Below, one piece after another: positions 17,637-23,458 of a stretch of DNA of 35,095 bases (the stretch's first letter is position 1; every line of letters begins with the position of its first letter). Source of the DNA: Spirochaetaceae bacterium (lineage in GTDB: Bacteria; Spirochaetota; Spirochaetia; Treponematales; Rectinemataceae). The stretch is from assembly GCA_025356015.1 (NCBI GenBank), contig JANXYO010000098.1:1-35095 (forward strand), read 5' to 3'. Made by a program: the position numbers and the translations under genes. The notes under the pieces are model-generated. The model had not been told where the DNA came from and made no database searches. It was given only the letters and a program-made list of their open reading frames with translations.

Positions 17637-17793
17637 AACAGGGCCGCCCTGGCGGATATCCATAAAGGTTTATCGCTTGACGGCCCAAAACTCCTCGGAT
17701 ATTCTGAGACCCAGCTCCGAACCGTATCGCCTTCCGGTCCAAGCACTTGGTGCCGATCCAGAGGGCGGCAGCGGGCGCCGCAAAGCGCGCGCC

Positions 17794-17918
17794 TGCGGGA
17801 CGCCTCCGATCGGGCAGCACTGTCTGCCCGCACTCGTGGCTCCACGGTCGTGACCGGCCGGCCCCTTGGGGGAAGGCGTGGTCGAAGGCCCTTGCCGGAA
17901 ACGGATAGGCCTCCCGCA
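17794..17918 (+). ncRNA. Structured leader of tupA, candidate Moco/Tuco (molybdenum/tungsten cofactor) riboswitch
   Basis: The 300-bp gap before tupA (17637-17936) has no gene but folds well. A long closing helix pairs 17794-17808 with 17902-17918 (7 bp, one C-C mismatch, 3 bp, a 2-nt bulge, 4 bp). Inside are a perfect 7-bp hairpin CGGGCAG/CTGCCCG (17811-17817 with 17824-17830), a small hairpin CGTG/CACG (17835-17838, 17843-17846), and a third arm closed by CCGGC/GCCGG (17854-17858, 17894-17898). The unpaired GAAACGGATAGGCCTCCC run and the link to tungstate transport plus moeA/moaA/moaC point to the Moco/Tuco riboswitch class, which senses the pterin cofactor. The class is assigned from context and memory of the motif, not from a covariance search. 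Confidence 0.55.
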
Positions 17919-17919
17919 C

Positions 17920-17936
17920 TTGGAAAGGAGTTCCAA
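17920..17936 (+). promoter_or_regulatory. Hairpin with the tupA Shine-Dalgarno in its loop
   Basis: TTGGAA (17920-17925) and TTCCAA (17931-17936) form a perfect 6-bp stem whose 5-nt loop is AGGAG, the tupA ribosome site. The stem ends directly before the ATG at 17937 and begins 1 nt after the closing helix of the leader structure. This arrangement could let the leader fold control translation by opening or presenting the ribosome site. Confidence 0.6.
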
Positions 17937-18743
17937 ATGAAAAGGCTCGGCCTCATCGTCCTCGCATGCGCACTTGCCCTGTCCGCCCTCTGGGCCCAGA
18001 GTCCCGCCAATCCCCGTCTCAAGCTCGCGACCACCACGAGCACCGAGCAGTCGGGCCTCCTCTCCGCCATCCTCCCGGCCTTCGAGAAGGAGACGGGCTA
18101 CAAAGTCGACGTGATCGCCGTGGGCACGGGAGCGTCACTGAAGATCGGGGAGAAGGGCGACTGCGATGTCGTCCTCGTCCACGCCCGCGCCCTCGAGGAC
18201 GCCTTCATGGCCGCCGGATTCGGAGCGGACCGCAAGGACGTCATGTACAACGACTTCGTCGTCCTTGGGCCGGCCTCCGATCCCGCGGGCATGTCAAAAG
18301 CAAAGACCGCCCTCGATGCCTTCGCCCTCATCGCCAAGGCCCAGGCGGGCTTCGTGTCCCGCGGCGACAATTCCGGCACCGACGTCAAGGAGAAGGAGAT
18401 CTGGAAGGCCGCCGCCCTCGCCCCCAAGGGCGTCGCCTGGTACAAGGAGGCGGGCCAGGGCATGTCCCAAGTGATCGTCATGGCCGAGCAGATGGGCGCC
18501 TACACCCTCGCCGACCGGGCCACCTGGCTCGCGATGAAGGACAAGTCCAAGCTCGCCATCCTGAACCAGGGTGACAAGATCCTCTTCAACCCCTATGGCA
18601 TCATCACGGTCAGCCCGGCGAAATGGCCCCAGTCAAACTACGCGGGGGCCCTGGCCCTCATGAACTGGATCACCGGTCCGCGCGGACAGGCCCTCATCTC
18701 CGCCTACAAAATAGGCGGAGAGCAGTGCTTCTATCTGTACTGA
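17937..18743 (+). CDS. tupA: Tungstate ABC transporter substrate-binding protein TupA
   Basis: 268 residues from the ATG at 17937. A signal peptide of about 20 residues ends in ALSALWAQ. The mature protein has the TupA hallmark TTTSTEQSGLLSAILPAFEK at the oxyanion pocket, then GDCDVVLVHARALED, RGDNSGTDVKEKEIW and YTLADRATWLAM. TupA binds tungstate very tightly and passes it to TupB; related WtpA/ModA proteins lack the TTTS start. It is followed by tupB and tupC and then by cofactor-synthesis genes, which is a typical tungsten-cofactor setting. No lipobox Cys is seen. Confidence 0.93.
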   Translation: MKRLGLIVLACALALSALWAQSPANPRLKLATTTSTEQSGLLSAILPAFEKETGYKVDVIAVGTGASLKIGEKGDCDVVLVHARALEDAFMAAGFGADRKDVMYNDFVVLGPASDPAGMSKAKTALDAFALIAKAQAGFVSRGDNSGTDVKEKEIWKAAALAPKGVAWYKEAGQGMSQVIVMAEQMGAYTLADRATWLAMKDKSKLAILNQGDKILFNPYGIITVSPAKWPQSNYAGALALMNWITGPRGQALISAYKIGGEQCFYLY

Positions 18744-18754
18744 GCGCTTGAAGG

Positions 18755-19426
18755 ATGCGTGAGGCGTTCAGGCTCCTGTTTGGCGGCGATGCCGAGACGT
18801 GGGGCATTGTCACGAGGAGCCTGGGCTTCTCGCTCTTCTCCACGATCTTCTCGACCCTCCCCGGCATCGCTGTCGGCATGGCCCTGGCCTCGCGGGACTT
18901 CCCCGGGAGGCGGGCCCTCGCCGCGGTGGTGAACGCCCTCACCGCCCTACCCACAGTCGTCATAGGGCTGTTGGTCTATTCCCTCATCTCGCGCTCAGGC
19001 CCCTTCGGTTCCCTGGGCTTCCTCTACGTCCCAGCGGGCGTCGTCGCCGGCCAGTCAGTCCTGGCCTTCCCCATCGTGGCCTCCCTCACCTACGCCGGCC
19101 TCTCCAAGCTTGACCCCCGCTTCGCCGAGACCCTCGTGACCCTGGGCGCCGGTCCCTACGCGCGGATGCTCGCCACCCTGCGCGAGGCCAAGGTCGTCCT
19201 CGTGGCGGCGATCGTCTCAGCCTTCGGCAGGGTCACCGGGGAGGTCGGGGTCTGCATGATGCTCGGCGGCAACATCCGCTTCTCCACGAGGACGATGACG
19301 ACGGCGATCGCCCTCGACGCCGGCAAGGGCGAGTTCGAGCGGGCAATCTCCCTCGGTCTGGTCCTTCTCATCATCGCCCTCGCGGTCAACCTCGCCCTCC
19401 ACGCGATGACGCCGAGGGAGGCCTAG
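18755..19426 (+). CDS. tupB: Tungstate ABC transporter permease TupB
   Basis: 223 residues with about five membrane spans, usual for TupB. The docking loop and following segment, ETLVTLGAGPYARMLATLRE and FGRVTGEVGVCMMLGGNIRF then STRTMTTAIAL, are characteristic of TupB permeases. The ATG at 18755 follows GAAGG closely. The gene starts 11 bp after tupA and ends 1 bp before tupC. Confidence 0.93.
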   Translation: MREAFRLLFGGDAETWGIVTRSLGFSLFSTIFSTLPGIAVGMALASRDFPGRRALAAVVNALTALPTVVIGLLVYSLISRSGPFGSLGFLYVPAGVVAGQSVLAFPIVASLTYAGLSKLDPRFAETLVTLGAGPYARMLATLREAKVVLVAAIVSAFGRVTGEVGVCMMLGGNIRFSTRTMTTAIALDAGKGEFERAISLGLVLLIIALAVNLALHAMTPREA

Positions 19427-19427
19427 G

Positions 19428-20078
19428 ATGTACGCCGTCGAGGGTCTCGAGATCAGGTACGGCAAGGGCCTCGCCTTCGCCGCGAGCGAGCTCCACATTC
19501 GCGAGGGGGAGTGCGTCGCCCTGCTCGGGCCAAACGGCTCCGGCAAGACCACCCTCCTCAAGGCCCTGAACGGCCTCCTGAGGCCCAGCGCGGGGCGCCT
19601 CCTGTTCAGGGGCTCTCCCGCGGCGCTCTCGAGCGAGCTGCGCCAAAGGAGCGTCTATCTTCACCAGATGCCCTACATCCTGGCGGGAACGGTATCGTAC
19701 AACGTCTGCTTCGGAAGCAAGTCGAGGTCCGTGGCTAGGGACGTGGCCGAGCGCAGGGCCGCGGAGGCGATGGCCCTCCTGGGCCTTTCCGGCTTCGAGC
19801 GCAGGCGGCACCGGGCCCTCTCGGGCGGCGAGGCCCAGCGCGTCGCCCTCGCGAGGGCCCTGGCCTCGGGCGCCGACGTCCTGCTCCTTGACGAGCCGAC
19901 CGCCTCGGCCGACTCGGCCTCCCGCGACCTCATCCTCGGCGGCCTTGAGCGGATGGTCCGCGAGGGAGCGACCATCGTCTTCAGCACCCATGACCAAGCC
20001 ATCGCGTCCGCTCTCGCCGGCCGCGTCCTGACCCTCGAGCGCGGCGAGATCACCGAAGACAGGAGCACGAGCCGATGA
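19428..20078 (+). CDS. tupC: Tungstate ABC transporter ATPase TupC
   Basis: 216 residues, compact ABC ATPase. Walker A is GPNGSGKTTLLKAL, the Q-loop region is YLHQMPYIL, the ABC signature is LSGGEAQRVALARAL, Walker B is VLLLDEPTASAD, and the switch His is in FSTHDQA. It has no C-terminal regulatory (TOBE-like) domain, consistent with TupC. The downstream moeA start overlaps its stop by 4 bp. Confidence 0.92.
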   Translation: MYAVEGLEIRYGKGLAFAASELHIREGECVALLGPNGSGKTTLLKALNGLLRPSAGRLLFRGSPAALSSELRQRSVYLHQMPYILAGTVSYNVCFGSKSRSVARDVAERRAAEAMALLGLSGFERRRHRALSGGEAQRVALARALASGADVLLLDEPTASADSASRDLILGGLERMVREGATIVFSTHDQAIASALAGRVLTLERGEITEDRSTSR

Positions 20079-21295
20079 AAGCGAGCGCCAGAACCGCCCT
20101 CCATCCCGACGAGGCGAGGCTTCTCGTCGAGCGCTACGCCGTCATCGGCGCCACCGAGAGGCTGCCCCTCGACGACGCTTTGGGCCGCGCCCTCGCCGAG
20201 GACCTTCCCGCCCTCGTGGACCAGCCGCCCTTTGACAAGTCGGGCATGGACGGCTTCGCCTGGGGGGAGCCCGGACCGGGGCCGGAATGGAGGGTCGTCG
20301 GGGTCGTTGCGGCCGGCTCGGCCTTTTCCCCCCTGCTCGCCCCGGGCGACTGCGTCCGGATCATGACCGGGGCGCCCGTCCCGCGGGGGACCCAGGCTGT
20401 CCAGCGCGTCGAGTTCACCAGCGAGTCCAGGGCGGGCGACGGCTCGGCCATCGTGAGCTTCACGGCTGAGGAGAGCGGCGACAACATCATCCGCCGCGGC
20501 GAGAACCAGCGCAGGGGAGACCAGCTGCTGCGGAGGCGGATCCTCTCGGCCCAGGACATCGGTGTCCTCGCCTCCTCGGGCTACGCCACGGTTCCGGTGG
20601 TGACGAGGCCCCTGGTAGGGGTAGTCTCGACCGGGGACGAGCTCGTTCCCGCCGGCAAGGTCCTCGCTCCGGGGGCGATCTACGACTCGAACGGACCCCA
20701 GCTCCTCGCCCAGGCCAGGGCTGCCGGTGCCCTGGCGCGGCATTACGGGATAGTCTGCGACGACGGCAAGGCACTCGCTGCCGCCCTCTCGACGGCCCTC
20801 GAGGAGTGCGACATCGTCCTTGTCTCCGGAGGGGTCTCCATGGGGGACTTCGACCACGTCCCGCGAAGCCTCATCGCGGCCGGCGTAGAGCAGCACTTCC
20901 ATGGCCTCGCGATGCGCCCAGGCAAGCCAACCTTCTTTGGCATGAAGGGGCCGGTCGCGGTATTCGGCCTGCCCGGCAATCCCGTCTCCACCTTTGTCAA
21001 TTTCGAGGTCCTGGTGAAGGTCCACATCATGCGCCGCATGGGCCTCGAGCTCGAGCCGCGCATCCTCCCCTGCAGCCTCGCCGCCGCGATCGAGCGCCGC
21101 GAGACCGACCGGGTGGAGTTCTACCCGGCCCGCCTCGAGGCCGGGAAGGGTGGCATCGCGGCCAGGCCCCTGGCCTACCACGGCTCCTCGATGCTGAGCG
21201 TCCTGGCTGAGACCGACTGCCTCGTGCGTATGGAGTTCGGCGAGAAGCGCCTCGAGGAAGGAAGGATCGTCGATGTTCGACTCGTACGGCCGTGA
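20075..21295 (+). CDS. moeA: Molybdopterin (tungstopterin) metal transferase MoeA
   Basis: 406 residues. MoeA inserts molybdate or tungstate into adenylated molybdopterin in the cytoplasm. Domain order is normal: N-terminal part with LPLDDALGRALAEDLPALVD and FDKSGMDGFAW, IMTGAPVPRGTQAVQRVEF, the linker GDNIIRRGENQRRGD, then the MoCF-like domain (about 178-330) with VSTGDELVPAG, VLVSGGVSMGDFDHV and GLPGNPVST, and a C-terminal domain IV (about 335-406). Directly coupled to tupC, which suggests the imported metal is used at this step. The last 23 bp overlap moaA. Confidence 0.94.
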   Translation: MKASARTALHPDEARLLVERYAVIGATERLPLDDALGRALAEDLPALVDQPPFDKSGMDGFAWGEPGPGPEWRVVGVVAAGSAFSPLLAPGDCVRIMTGAPVPRGTQAVQRVEFTSESRAGDGSAIVSFTAEESGDNIIRRGENQRRGDQLLRRRILSAQDIGVLASSGYATVPVVTRPLVGVVSTGDELVPAGKVLAPGAIYDSNGPQLLAQARAAGALARHYGIVCDDGKALAAALSTALEECDIVLVSGGVSMGDFDHVPRSLIAAGVEQHFHGLAMRPGKPTFFGMKGPVAVFGLPGNPVSTFVNFEVLVKVHIMRRMGLELEPRILPCSLAAAIERRETDRVEFYPARLEAGKGGIAARPLAYHGSSMLSVLAETDCLVRMEFGEKRLEEGRIVDVRLVRP

Positions 21296-22070
21296 GATAA
21301 GCTACCTCAGGGTCTCGGTGACAGACCGCTGCAACCTCCGCTGCACCTACTGCATGCCGCCAGAAGGGGTGAAGCTGCTGCGCCACGACGAGATCCTGAG
21401 CTTCGAGCAGATCGCCCAGGTGGTGGGCGCCGCCGCCTCCATGGGCTTCCGCAAGGTCAGGCTCACCGGGGGCGAGCCCCTGGCGCGGCTGGGCCTAATC
21501 GACCTTGTGTCGCTCATCGCGGAAATACCGGGTATCCAGACCATCGGCATGACCACCAACGGCAGCCTCCTTGCGCCGGTAGCCGCCGAGCTCAAGAAGA
21601 GGGGCCTTCATTCGGTCAACGTCTCCCTCGACACCCTCGACCCGGAGCGCTTCGCGGCGATCACCAGGGGCGGCTCGATCGAGGCCACCTTCGAGGGTAT
21701 CAGGGCCGCCATCGCGGCCGGGCTCGCGGTCAAGCTGAACACTGTCGTCCTCCCCGAGACGAGCGAGGCCGAGTACCAGGCGATCCGGGACTACGCGGCG
21801 GGCATCGGGGCCAGGGTCCAGACCATCGCCCGCTACCACCTTGACGAGGAGAAGCGCGACGGGGGGGAGTACGACAGGCCCCCGCCCTGCTCGCTCTGCG
21901 ACAGGCTCAGGCTCCTCGCGAACGGGGTACTGCGGCCCTGCCTCCACGGCGAGCTCGGGGTGAAGGTCGATTTCGGCGACATAGCGGGGAGCATCGAGAG
22001 GGCCGTGGGGCTGAAGCCCGCGCGCGGCCTCGCAGCGCGGGACCTCGCCGTGGGGCAGATAGGGGGCTGA
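21273..22070 (+). CDS. moaA: GTP 3',8-cyclase MoaA, compact form
   Basis: 265 residues, clearly shorter than the usual 320 to 340. MoaA is a radical-SAM enzyme that starts molybdopterin synthesis from GTP. All key elements are kept: the SAM cluster Cys20, Cys24, Cys27 in TDRCNLRCTYC, the SAM-binding GGEPL, the second cluster Cys206, Cys209, Cys223 (CxxC, 13 residues, C), the Arg residues of CDRLRLLANG and the C-terminal Gly-Gly at the very end. The stretch between the barrel and the second cluster is about 50 residues shorter than in the S. aureus enzyme as I recall its numbering: QTIARYHLDEEKRDGGEYD leads directly into the second cluster. No frameshift or stop suggests decay. The start lies 23 bp inside moeA. 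Confidence 0.9.
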   Translation: MFDSYGREISYLRVSVTDRCNLRCTYCMPPEGVKLLRHDEILSFEQIAQVVGAAASMGFRKVRLTGGEPLARLGLIDLVSLIAEIPGIQTIGMTTNGSLLAPVAAELKKRGLHSVNVSLDTLDPERFAAITRGGSIEATFEGIRAAIAAGLAVKLNTVVLPETSEAEYQAIRDYAAGIGARVQTIARYHLDEEKRDGGEYDRPPPCSLCDRLRLLANGVLRPCLHGELGVKVDFGDIAGSIERAVGLKPARGLAARDLAVGQIGG

Positions 22071-22072
22071 AG

Positions 22073-22528
22073 GTGGGAGACAGGCTGACGCACGTGGACG
22101 AGTCCGGCAAGGCCAGGATGGTCGACGTATCGGGCAAGGAGAGGGTGAGAAGGACGGCCAGGGCCTCGGGCCGGATCGACCTTTCACCCGCCACCGTGGC
22201 CCTCGTCCTCGCCAACGGCATGAAGAAGGGCGACGTCCTCTCGGCGGCGCGGCTGGCCGGCATCATGGCGGCCAAGCGCACGAGCGAGCTCATCCCCCTG
22301 TGCCACAACATCGAGATCGAGCACGCCGGCGTCGAGCTGCGGGTCCTGGAGGACGGGATCGAGATCGAGGCCACGGCGACCTGCACCGACAAGACGGGGA
22401 TAGAGATGGAGGCGCTTACGGCCGTGGCCGTCGCCGCCCTAACGGTCTATGACATGTGCAAGGCCGTCGACAAGGGCATGCGCATCCGCGACATTGTCCT
22501 CGTCGAGAAGACCAAGGAGAAGCTATGA
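22073..22528 (+). CDS. moaC: Cyclic pyranopterin monophosphate synthase MoaC
   Basis: 151 residues, full length. MoaC converts the MoaA product to cyclic pyranopterin monophosphate. Conserved segments: THVDESGKARMVDVSGKE, AAKRTSELIPLCHNI with the catalytic Lys, and GIEMEALTAVAVAALTVYDM followed by CKAVDKGM, which holds the catalytic Asp. The start is GTG at 22073, 2 bp after the moaA stop. The stop overlaps the next start (ATGA). Confidence 0.95.
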   Translation: MGDRLTHVDESGKARMVDVSGKERVRRTARASGRIDLSPATVALVLANGMKKGDVLSAARLAGIMAAKRTSELIPLCHNIEIEHAGVELRVLEDGIEIEATATCTDKTGIEMEALTAVAVAALTVYDMCKAVDKGMRIRDIVLVEKTKEKL

Positions 22529-23022
22529 GCGGGATTCCGGCTGCCGAGGGCAGCTTTGAGATTGTATCGGTCAACGTCTCGCAGAAGACGGGGACGCGCA
22601 AGCTGAGCGTGCCCAGGATCTCGCTCGCGGTAGGCCTCGGCGTCGACGGCGACGCCCACGCGGGGGGCTACGAGAACCGCCAGGTGTCCCTGCTCGCCAT
22701 CGAGGAGATCGAGAAGGCGAGCGCGGCCTGCGCCGGCTACGCCGCGTCCCACCCCGGGGCCCCTTCTGGCCTCGTGCCCGGGGACTTCGCCGAGAACATC
22801 ACGACCAGGGGTATCGTGCTGCACGAGCTGCCGGTCGGCACGAGGCTCGAGATCGGGGGCGCCGTCCTCGAGGTCTCCAAGATCGGCAAGGAGTGCCACG
22901 CCGCCTGCGAGATCAGGACCCTGGTCGGGGACTGCGTCATGCCCAAAAAGGGCATATTCGCGAGGGTGCTCTCCGCAGGGGAGGTGAGCCGTGAAGATCA
23001 CGGTCATTACCGTATCGGATAG
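22525..23022 (+). CDS. Stand-alone MOSC domain protein
   Basis: 165 residues from the ATG at 22525, which overlaps the moaC stop by 4 bp. A single MOSC domain with GLGVDGDAHAGG, NRQVSLLAIEEIE, VPGDFAENITTRGI, and IGKECHAACEIR; the Cys at residue 124 is the conserved one implicated in sulfur handling. MOSC proteins act on or carry the sulfurated molybdenum cofactor. In many anaerobes a short MOSC protein is next to or fused with MogA/MoaB; here it overlaps mogA by 32 bp, a near-fusion. Exact reaction is unknown. Confidence 0.88.
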   Translation: MSGIPAAEGSFEIVSVNVSQKTGTRKLSVPRISLAVGLGVDGDAHAGGYENRQVSLLAIEEIEKASAACAGYAASHPGAPSGLVPGDFAENITTRGIVLHELPVGTRLEIGGAVLEVSKIGKECHAACEIRTLVGDCVMPKKGIFARVLSAGEVSREDHGHYRIG

Positions 23023-23458
23023 GGCCTTCAAGGGAGTCTACGCGGACCGCTCGGGCCCTGCGATCGAGGAGACCTTACGCGATCTGGTGCCCGGCATCGA
23101 GCTCGAGAGGGAGATCGTCCCGGACGAGCGGGACCTCATCGTCGATGCCCTGCAGCGCCATTCCTCCGCAGAGTGGATCATCACCACGGGCGGCACGGGG
23201 CCCGCGCCCCGCGACGTGACGCCCGAGGCCACCCGGGCCTTCTGCGACCGCGAGCTCCCCGGCATCGCCGACTACCTCAGGACCGAATCCCTCAAGGAGA
23301 CGCCCTACGCCCTGTTCTCAAGGGCCACCGCGGGCATGCGCTCCTTCCAGTACGTGGTGAACCTTCCGGGAAGCGAGAAGGCTGCGCGTTTCTGCGCCGC
23401 CCTCCTCGCCCCCCTCCTGGACCACGGGGTGAAGATGGCCCGGGGCGAGGGACACTAG
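22991..23458 (+). CDS. mogA: Molybdopterin adenylyltransferase-type protein MogA/MoaB
   Basis: 155 residues from the GTG at 22991. The MoCF-type fold shows ITVITVSDRAFKGVYADRSG at the N-terminus, the key TTGGTGPAPRDVTPEATRAF, and NLPGSEKAARFC near the C-terminus. MogA adenylates molybdopterin before MoeA inserts the metal. MoaB paralogues look alike, so the symbol is a family-level choice. The gene ends the tup-moa operon; a strong hairpin follows 31 bp later. No moaD, moaE or moeB is in the window. Confidence 0.88.
   Translation: MKITVITVSDRAFKGVYADRSGPAIEETLRDLVPGIELEREIVPDERDLIVDALQRHSSAEWIITTGGTGPAPRDVTPEATRAFCDRELPGIADYLRTESLKETPYALFSRATAGMRSFQYVVNLPGSEKAARFCAALLAPLLDHGVKMARGEGH

Follow-up and report, generated by a model that had tools for sequence, protein, structure and literature searches.

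Genes and Features at the tupA Locus

The DNA analyzed here, hereafter the window, is a stretch of 35,095 nucleotides from an uncultured spirochaete (Spirochaetaceae bacterium, contig JANXYO010000098.1). It carries on its forward strand an operon in the order tupABC, moeA, moaA, moaC, a MOSC-domain gene and mogA, which the original prediction had read from the letters alone and which Pfam and NCBIfam profiles bear out (table 1). The TupA- and TupB-like proteins score under the tungstate equivalog cut-offs, and specificity for tungstate is likely by family, as judged from their sequences. The profile match of MoaA covers positions 1-198 of 336, and the match to its relatives also spans all 265 residues. 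The best matches of the window TupA are found in Spirochaetes metagenome genomes, and the same gene order, preceded by the same RNA, recurs in relatives having TupA identities of 46-73%; a search of genome contigs found no relative closer to the window.

Table 1. Position and supporting evidence of the elements in the tupA leader and the genes that follow it.
Feature	Position	Strand	Basis
Promoter, sigma70-like, TTGACG-17-TATTCT	17677..17705	+	consensus match only
Whole Moco-type aptamer, P1 to P1, best reading	17713..17932	+	unconstrained fold of 17712-17940; RF01055, R1 and R3 for the 3' two thirds; R2 for the 5' part
P1 5' strand AGCUCC, anti-Shine-Dalgarno	17713..17718	+	minimum-energy fold, partner strand 17927-17932
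P2 basal helix, 5' strand ACCGU (partner ACGGU, 17844-17848)	17721..17725	+	fold; P2 basal pairs of relatives covary (5/5)
Inner P2 arm, CGCC 17728-17731 / GGCG 17764-17767, with GAUCCAG element	17728..17767	+	R2 match; comparison with relatives
Lineage-specific P2 insert, two hairpins; second CUCCGA (17804) and CGTG/CACG arm	17768..17843	+	fold
P2 basal helix, 3' strand ACGGU	17844..17848	+	strand agreed by R1 and R3 alignments and fold
P3 arm, GACCGGCC / GGC-G-UGGUC, 8 pairs	17852..17883	+	R1; fold; P3 pairs covary in relatives
P4 with GAAA tetraloop	17886..17912	+	R1; R3; fold
P5 (CC/GG), conserved CCCG...UUGG	17913..17923	+	R1; covariation analysis; fold
AAA and P1 3' strand GGAGUU, including tupA Shine-Dalgarno AAGGAG	17924..17932	+	sequence; models; fold
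tupA-like substrate-binding protein	17937..18743	+	NF041772, 225.5 bits (cut-off 400); PF12849; conserved TTTS motif
tupB-like permease	18755..19426	+	NF038017 above cut-off; NF041773, 187.5 of 320
tupC-like ATPase	19428..20078	+	PF00005
moeA	20075..21295	+	Pfam/NCBIfam
moaA, short (265 aa)	21273..22070	+	TIGR02666, 237 of 284 bits
moaC	22073..22528	+	TIGR00581 above cut-off
MOSC-domain protein	22525..23022	+	PF03473
mogA	22991..23458	+	PF00994; NF006932, 140.7 of 158

A Moco-Family RNA Precedes tupA

Scanned with Rfam at default settings, the window returns no match at all, because the score of the leader against the Moco RNA model, RF01055, lies under the gathering cut-off of 36 bits; the riboswitch is thus overlooked by default annotation. 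In a permissive scan, the leader matches the complete model (positions 1-135 of 135) at 17792-17946 of the forward strand with 34.9 bits (E 1.2e-6), so that the Rfam check proposed in the original prediction yields the anticipated family at a sub-threshold score. RNAs ahead of the same operon in relatives do exceed the cut-off, and RF01055 matches above it are present in 30 of the 59 genomes searched, the genome of the window included.

Models built from relatives, from which the window was excluded, give much stronger matches. Model R1 was derived from four tup leaders, a restricted set chosen because P2 and P3 were misplaced between gene classes when all P3-bearing RNAs were aligned with MAFFT; its match at 17800-17934 reaches 46.3 bits (E 1.4e-11), as against 5.6 bits for the runner-up in the 35 kb searched. 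R3, made from the RNAs of 25 relatives, scores 61.2 bits (E 3.5e-14) on the tupA leader, the runner-up in the window being at 13.1. When applied to 80 fetched tupA loci, R3 finds 22 matches in 19 of them, mostly in Spirochaetota with a few in Bacillota. Multiple copies also occur: two Desulforudis genomes carry a tandem pair of Moco-class RNAs upstream of tupA (L138:6542-6872 and L150:6452-6738), and in another locus (L098) two copies lie about 5 kb apart.

Covarying pairs, which the original prediction had expected in homologous leaders, are indeed found, the helices concerned being those of the model. Among 50 RNAs fitted to R1, compensatory base changes affect 23 of the 27 model pairs, 92.0% of pairing cells can pair versus a mean of 69.8% after shuffling, and the score, 0.559 with the true partners, is no higher than 0.110 once they are slid by one to three columns; alignments fitted to R1 are biased towards that model, yet both controls are exceeded by a wide margin. 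The 25 P3-bearing RNAs other than that of the window behave alike, with compensation in all five pairs of P3 and all five pairs of P2. The outcome named in advance as refuting the original prediction, absence of both a model match and compensatory changes, is thus not what is observed. Folding stability is only modest (z-score -1.88 for 17794-17936 and -2.0 for the full leader, 17712-17940), and the case for a Moco RNA therefore rests on homology and covariation.

According to the models and the fold, the leader contains P1, P2, P4 and P5 with conserved joints, P4 being mismatched in places and capped by a tetraloop of the GNRA type. The purine-rich runs noticed earlier are real, namely GGAAAGGAG and the loop of P4. 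On these sequence criteria, the tupA leader is a genuine Moco-family RNA in an uncultured spirochaete, which adds one more case to a known riboswitch class. It shares with the Moco RNA described by Regulski et al. (2008; PMC2408646) the P1-P5 order, the conserved joints, the GAAA loop on P4, a Shine-Dalgarno sequence inside P1 and a location before transport and MPT-synthesis genes, whereas it differs in its sub-threshold Rfam score, a P2 longer by about 75 nt and the lack of a clear tetraloop receptor. Spirochaetota are not among the phyla listed in the 2008 abstract (PMC2408646), and the literature searched contained no paper on a Moco riboswitch in this phylum.

The P3 Arm and the Nature of the Metal

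RNAs without P3 have been proposed to sense the tungsten cofactor, Tuco, while those bearing P3 have been assigned to Moco (PMC2408646). The original prediction suspected a Tuco variant from the short CGTG/CACG arm, taken as a reduced P3; this arm belongs to the P2 insert, while the true P3 occurs in the window leader as well as in the other tup leaders of its family that were examined (11 of 11 altogether). Having P3, the tupA-leader RNA is of the Moco type by the published rule and not a Tuco variant. In tallies that were corrected by hand after automatic calls, and which count sequences rather than independent events, P3 is present in 17 tup leaders and absent from 6, present in the single moeA leader and in 8 of 8 YdhY-YdhV leaders, and absent from 2 of 2 classical AOR leaders, 8 of 9 P5C dehydrogenase leaders and 7 of 7 leaders of an operon encoding a solute-binding protein, a sulfite-oxidase-fold protein and a permease.

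We consider it nearly an even chance, although slightly on the unfavorable side, that the RNA is a Tuco riboswitch nonetheless, that is a member of the same class tuned to the tungsten cofactor despite its P3, a proposal that overlaps with the Moco-class explanation. The tup genes downstream favor this proposal, as does the TTTS motif of their TupA, described as a TupA signature in PMC4139814, even if TupA proteins are also able to bind molybdate (PMC4139814) and the score of this TupA on the tungstate equivalog model is just 225 of 400. ModA was not found in the genome of the window, and 12 of the 17 P3-bearing tup leaders come from genomes without a ModA over its cut-off. The same genome has five to six genes of the AOR/WOR family, with six matches (G000: C138, C150, C100, C19, C57 and C99), one of them GAPOR-like. 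A Class V, YdhV-type enzyme from a TupABC-bearing host takes up mainly tungsten (PMC13328260), while molybdenum is preferred by YdhV of E. coli (PMC12096430). Against all this stand the published correlation itself, which gives P3-bearing RNAs to Moco (PMC2408646), and the fact that ligand preference is beyond the reach of sequence.

The metal sensed cannot therefore be fixed from sequence, and a role for tungsten may be compatible with what is observed. Within this clade, P3 may fail to indicate the metal, given the TupA-like uptake system, the several genes of the tungsten-oxidoreductase family and the lack of a detectable ModA. The window RNA resembles the proposed Tuco variant (PMC2408646) in preceding a tungstate-type transporter within a genome of this kind, but it has the P3 whose absence defines that variant. 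This mismatch between P3 and metal is the interesting part of the finding. P3-bearing and P3-lacking RNAs coexist inside single genomes of the clade, and such natural pairs make it directly testable whether P3 separates molybdenum from tungsten cofactor sensing, as has been proposed. As a side observation, six AOR/WOR-family matches without detectable ModA amount to a tungsten-rich enzyme set; the genome also encodes a formate-dehydrogenase-like and a DMSO-reductase-like enzyme.

Where the Aptamer Begins

All full-length models (RF01055, R1 and R3) place the 5' strand of P1 at the CUCCGA of 17804 and not at 17715, plausibly because an insert of about 75 nt is costly to them. Model R2, restricted to the P1 5' strand and the P2 arm of 16 relatives with the window excluded, instead scores highest, over the 35 kb as a whole, at 17715-17776 (CUCCGAACCGUAUCGCC...GAUCCAGAGGGCGGCAGCGGG), with 19.9 bits (E 0.031 for the window) as compared with 11.9 for the next. 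Folded without constraints, 17712-17940 displays all five Moco helices, P1 to P5, in its minimum-energy structure (-111.9 kcal/mol), and a promoter-like -10 element sits 7-9 nt ahead of the P1 so defined, a spacing that is similar in several relatives, even if a -10 of such quality is found at about 6% of random positions in the window. The R2 match, the promoter spacing and the fold energies together lead us to propose a single aptamer at 17713-17932 with a P2 enlarged by about 75 nt, which we regard as probable on the strength of models and predicted folds. The 5' boundary is less certain than membership in the family. Long P2 arms are also seen in relatives, in which the P1-P2 stretch reaches up to 111 nt; no close relative was found that could show covariation within the insert. 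The GAUCCAG of the P2 arm resembles the 3' strand of the relatives' tetraloop receptor, but the canonical 5' strand is not seen, and no canonical receptor for the P4 tetraloop is evident in the leader.

The alternative is a shorter aptamer with CUCC at 17804-17807 as the P1 5' strand and AUCG/CGGU as P2, the match at 17715 being then fortuitous or a decayed copy. Although this is the top-scoring placement in every full-length model, it drops a base from the GA joint, which is otherwise nearly invariant, requires a U-G pair in P2, obtains only 4.7 bits from R2, lacks a -10 element ahead of it and, when P1 is forced to 17804, yields a fold of -101.6 kcal/mol, 10.3 kcal/mol worse than the unconstrained one. 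We thus consider the shorter aptamer unlikely. We also entertained, and rejected, a second aptamer in tandem at 17715-17800: R1 matches none there and neither a P1 3' strand nor a P5 follows, so that this segment is taken to form the 5' half of the one aptamer.

With the single long aptamer, the element probably begins about 80 bases before the start at 17794 that was originally proposed. The long closing helix TGCGGGA...TCCCGCA of that proposal does not correspond to P1 of the family; it has the lowest energy in an RNA truncated at about 17790, and from 17712 onwards the Moco helices appear in its place. The original prediction suspected the right riboswitch class but gave it wrong bounds, a partly wrong set of helices and a wrong subtype. 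The same long helix was considered as a conserved antisequestor of the ON state and rejected as a general feature after computing alternative folds of other leaders also, for an upstream complement to CCUCCCG is present (by eye) only in the window.

Proposed Shine-Dalgarno Sequestration and Switching

The GGAG in the 3' strand of P1 coincides with the tupA Shine-Dalgarno sequence, which lies six bases ahead of the AUG at 17937. In E. coli moaA, the Shine-Dalgarno sequence is likewise within P1 and cofactor production represses expression (PMC2408646); by this analogy, a translational OFF switch is the best inference here. Our main reading, to which we assign a probability of roughly 0.85, is that the tupA-leader RNA belongs to the Moco class and acts as a riboswitch through a translational OFF platform, its direction and ligand being inferred. 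The leader of E. coli moaABCDE (149 moaA RNA) has the ribosome-binding site in P1 and predicted translational repression in common with it, but the window operon opens with tupABC, lacks moaB, moaD and moaE and differs in overall order.

Binding of the pterin-metal cofactor (Moco, or possibly its tungsten analogue here) would lock P1 and hide the Shine-Dalgarno sequence, whereby translation of tupA would drop and, through coupling, that of the rest of the operon as well. Without cofactor, P1 would open, in partial competition with a small Shine-Dalgarno hairpin and alternative pairings of the P2 insert. That the conserved leader is a mere transcription or translation signal, such as a ribosome-binding hairpin without any aptamer, is very improbable: the Shine-Dalgarno sequence accounts for part of the strongest conservation and is enclosed by a UGGAA/UUCCA hairpin, but covariation extends to P2, P3 and P4, distant from it, and RF01055 recognizes the leader.

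Other Moco-Class RNAs

The genome of the window has a second RF01055 copy above the cut-off (52.6 bits). This copy (L023:8073-8206, minus strand; G000:C57) precedes ydhY-ydhV-like genes (PRK09849 above cut-off), and its expression platform is likely to differ, since the GGAG of its P1 is not beside a start codon.

Further Moco-class RNAs (L053:5901-6006, L043:6613-6724, L062:5812-5916 and similar ones), eight of nine without P3, precede a gene for L-glutamate gamma-semialdehyde dehydrogenase, an identification based on TIGR01236, which is above its cut-off in all three proteins scanned. Most of these RNAs have a Shine-Dalgarno sequence within P1. The dehydrogenase requires neither molybdenum nor tungsten, and it is possible that its leader RNAs swap between cofactor-free and cofactor-dependent routes of aldehyde oxidation. 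We tentatively suggest, while deeming it rather less probable than the opposite, that in Spirochaetota the P3 arm is no marker of Moco versus Tuco, P3-bearing RNAs controlling tungstate-type uptake and YdhV-type oxidoreductases and P3-lacking RNAs preceding P5C dehydrogenase and the sulfite-oxidase-fold operon. If this were true, one cofactor pool might repress a cofactor-independent aldehyde dehydrogenase besides the supply of cofactor.

P3-lacking Moco-class RNAs are also found before a gene for a solute-binding protein (L036:8856-8983; also L065, L066, L031, L025, L027 and L071), which in several loci is followed by a protein with an Oxidored_molyb domain and a double permease. Finally, another P3-lacking RNA (L026:9145-9270, minus strand) has its next long frame 393 nt further on, beginning VIVAAGLSSRM..., which we take to resemble the start of a molybdopterin nucleotidyltransferase.
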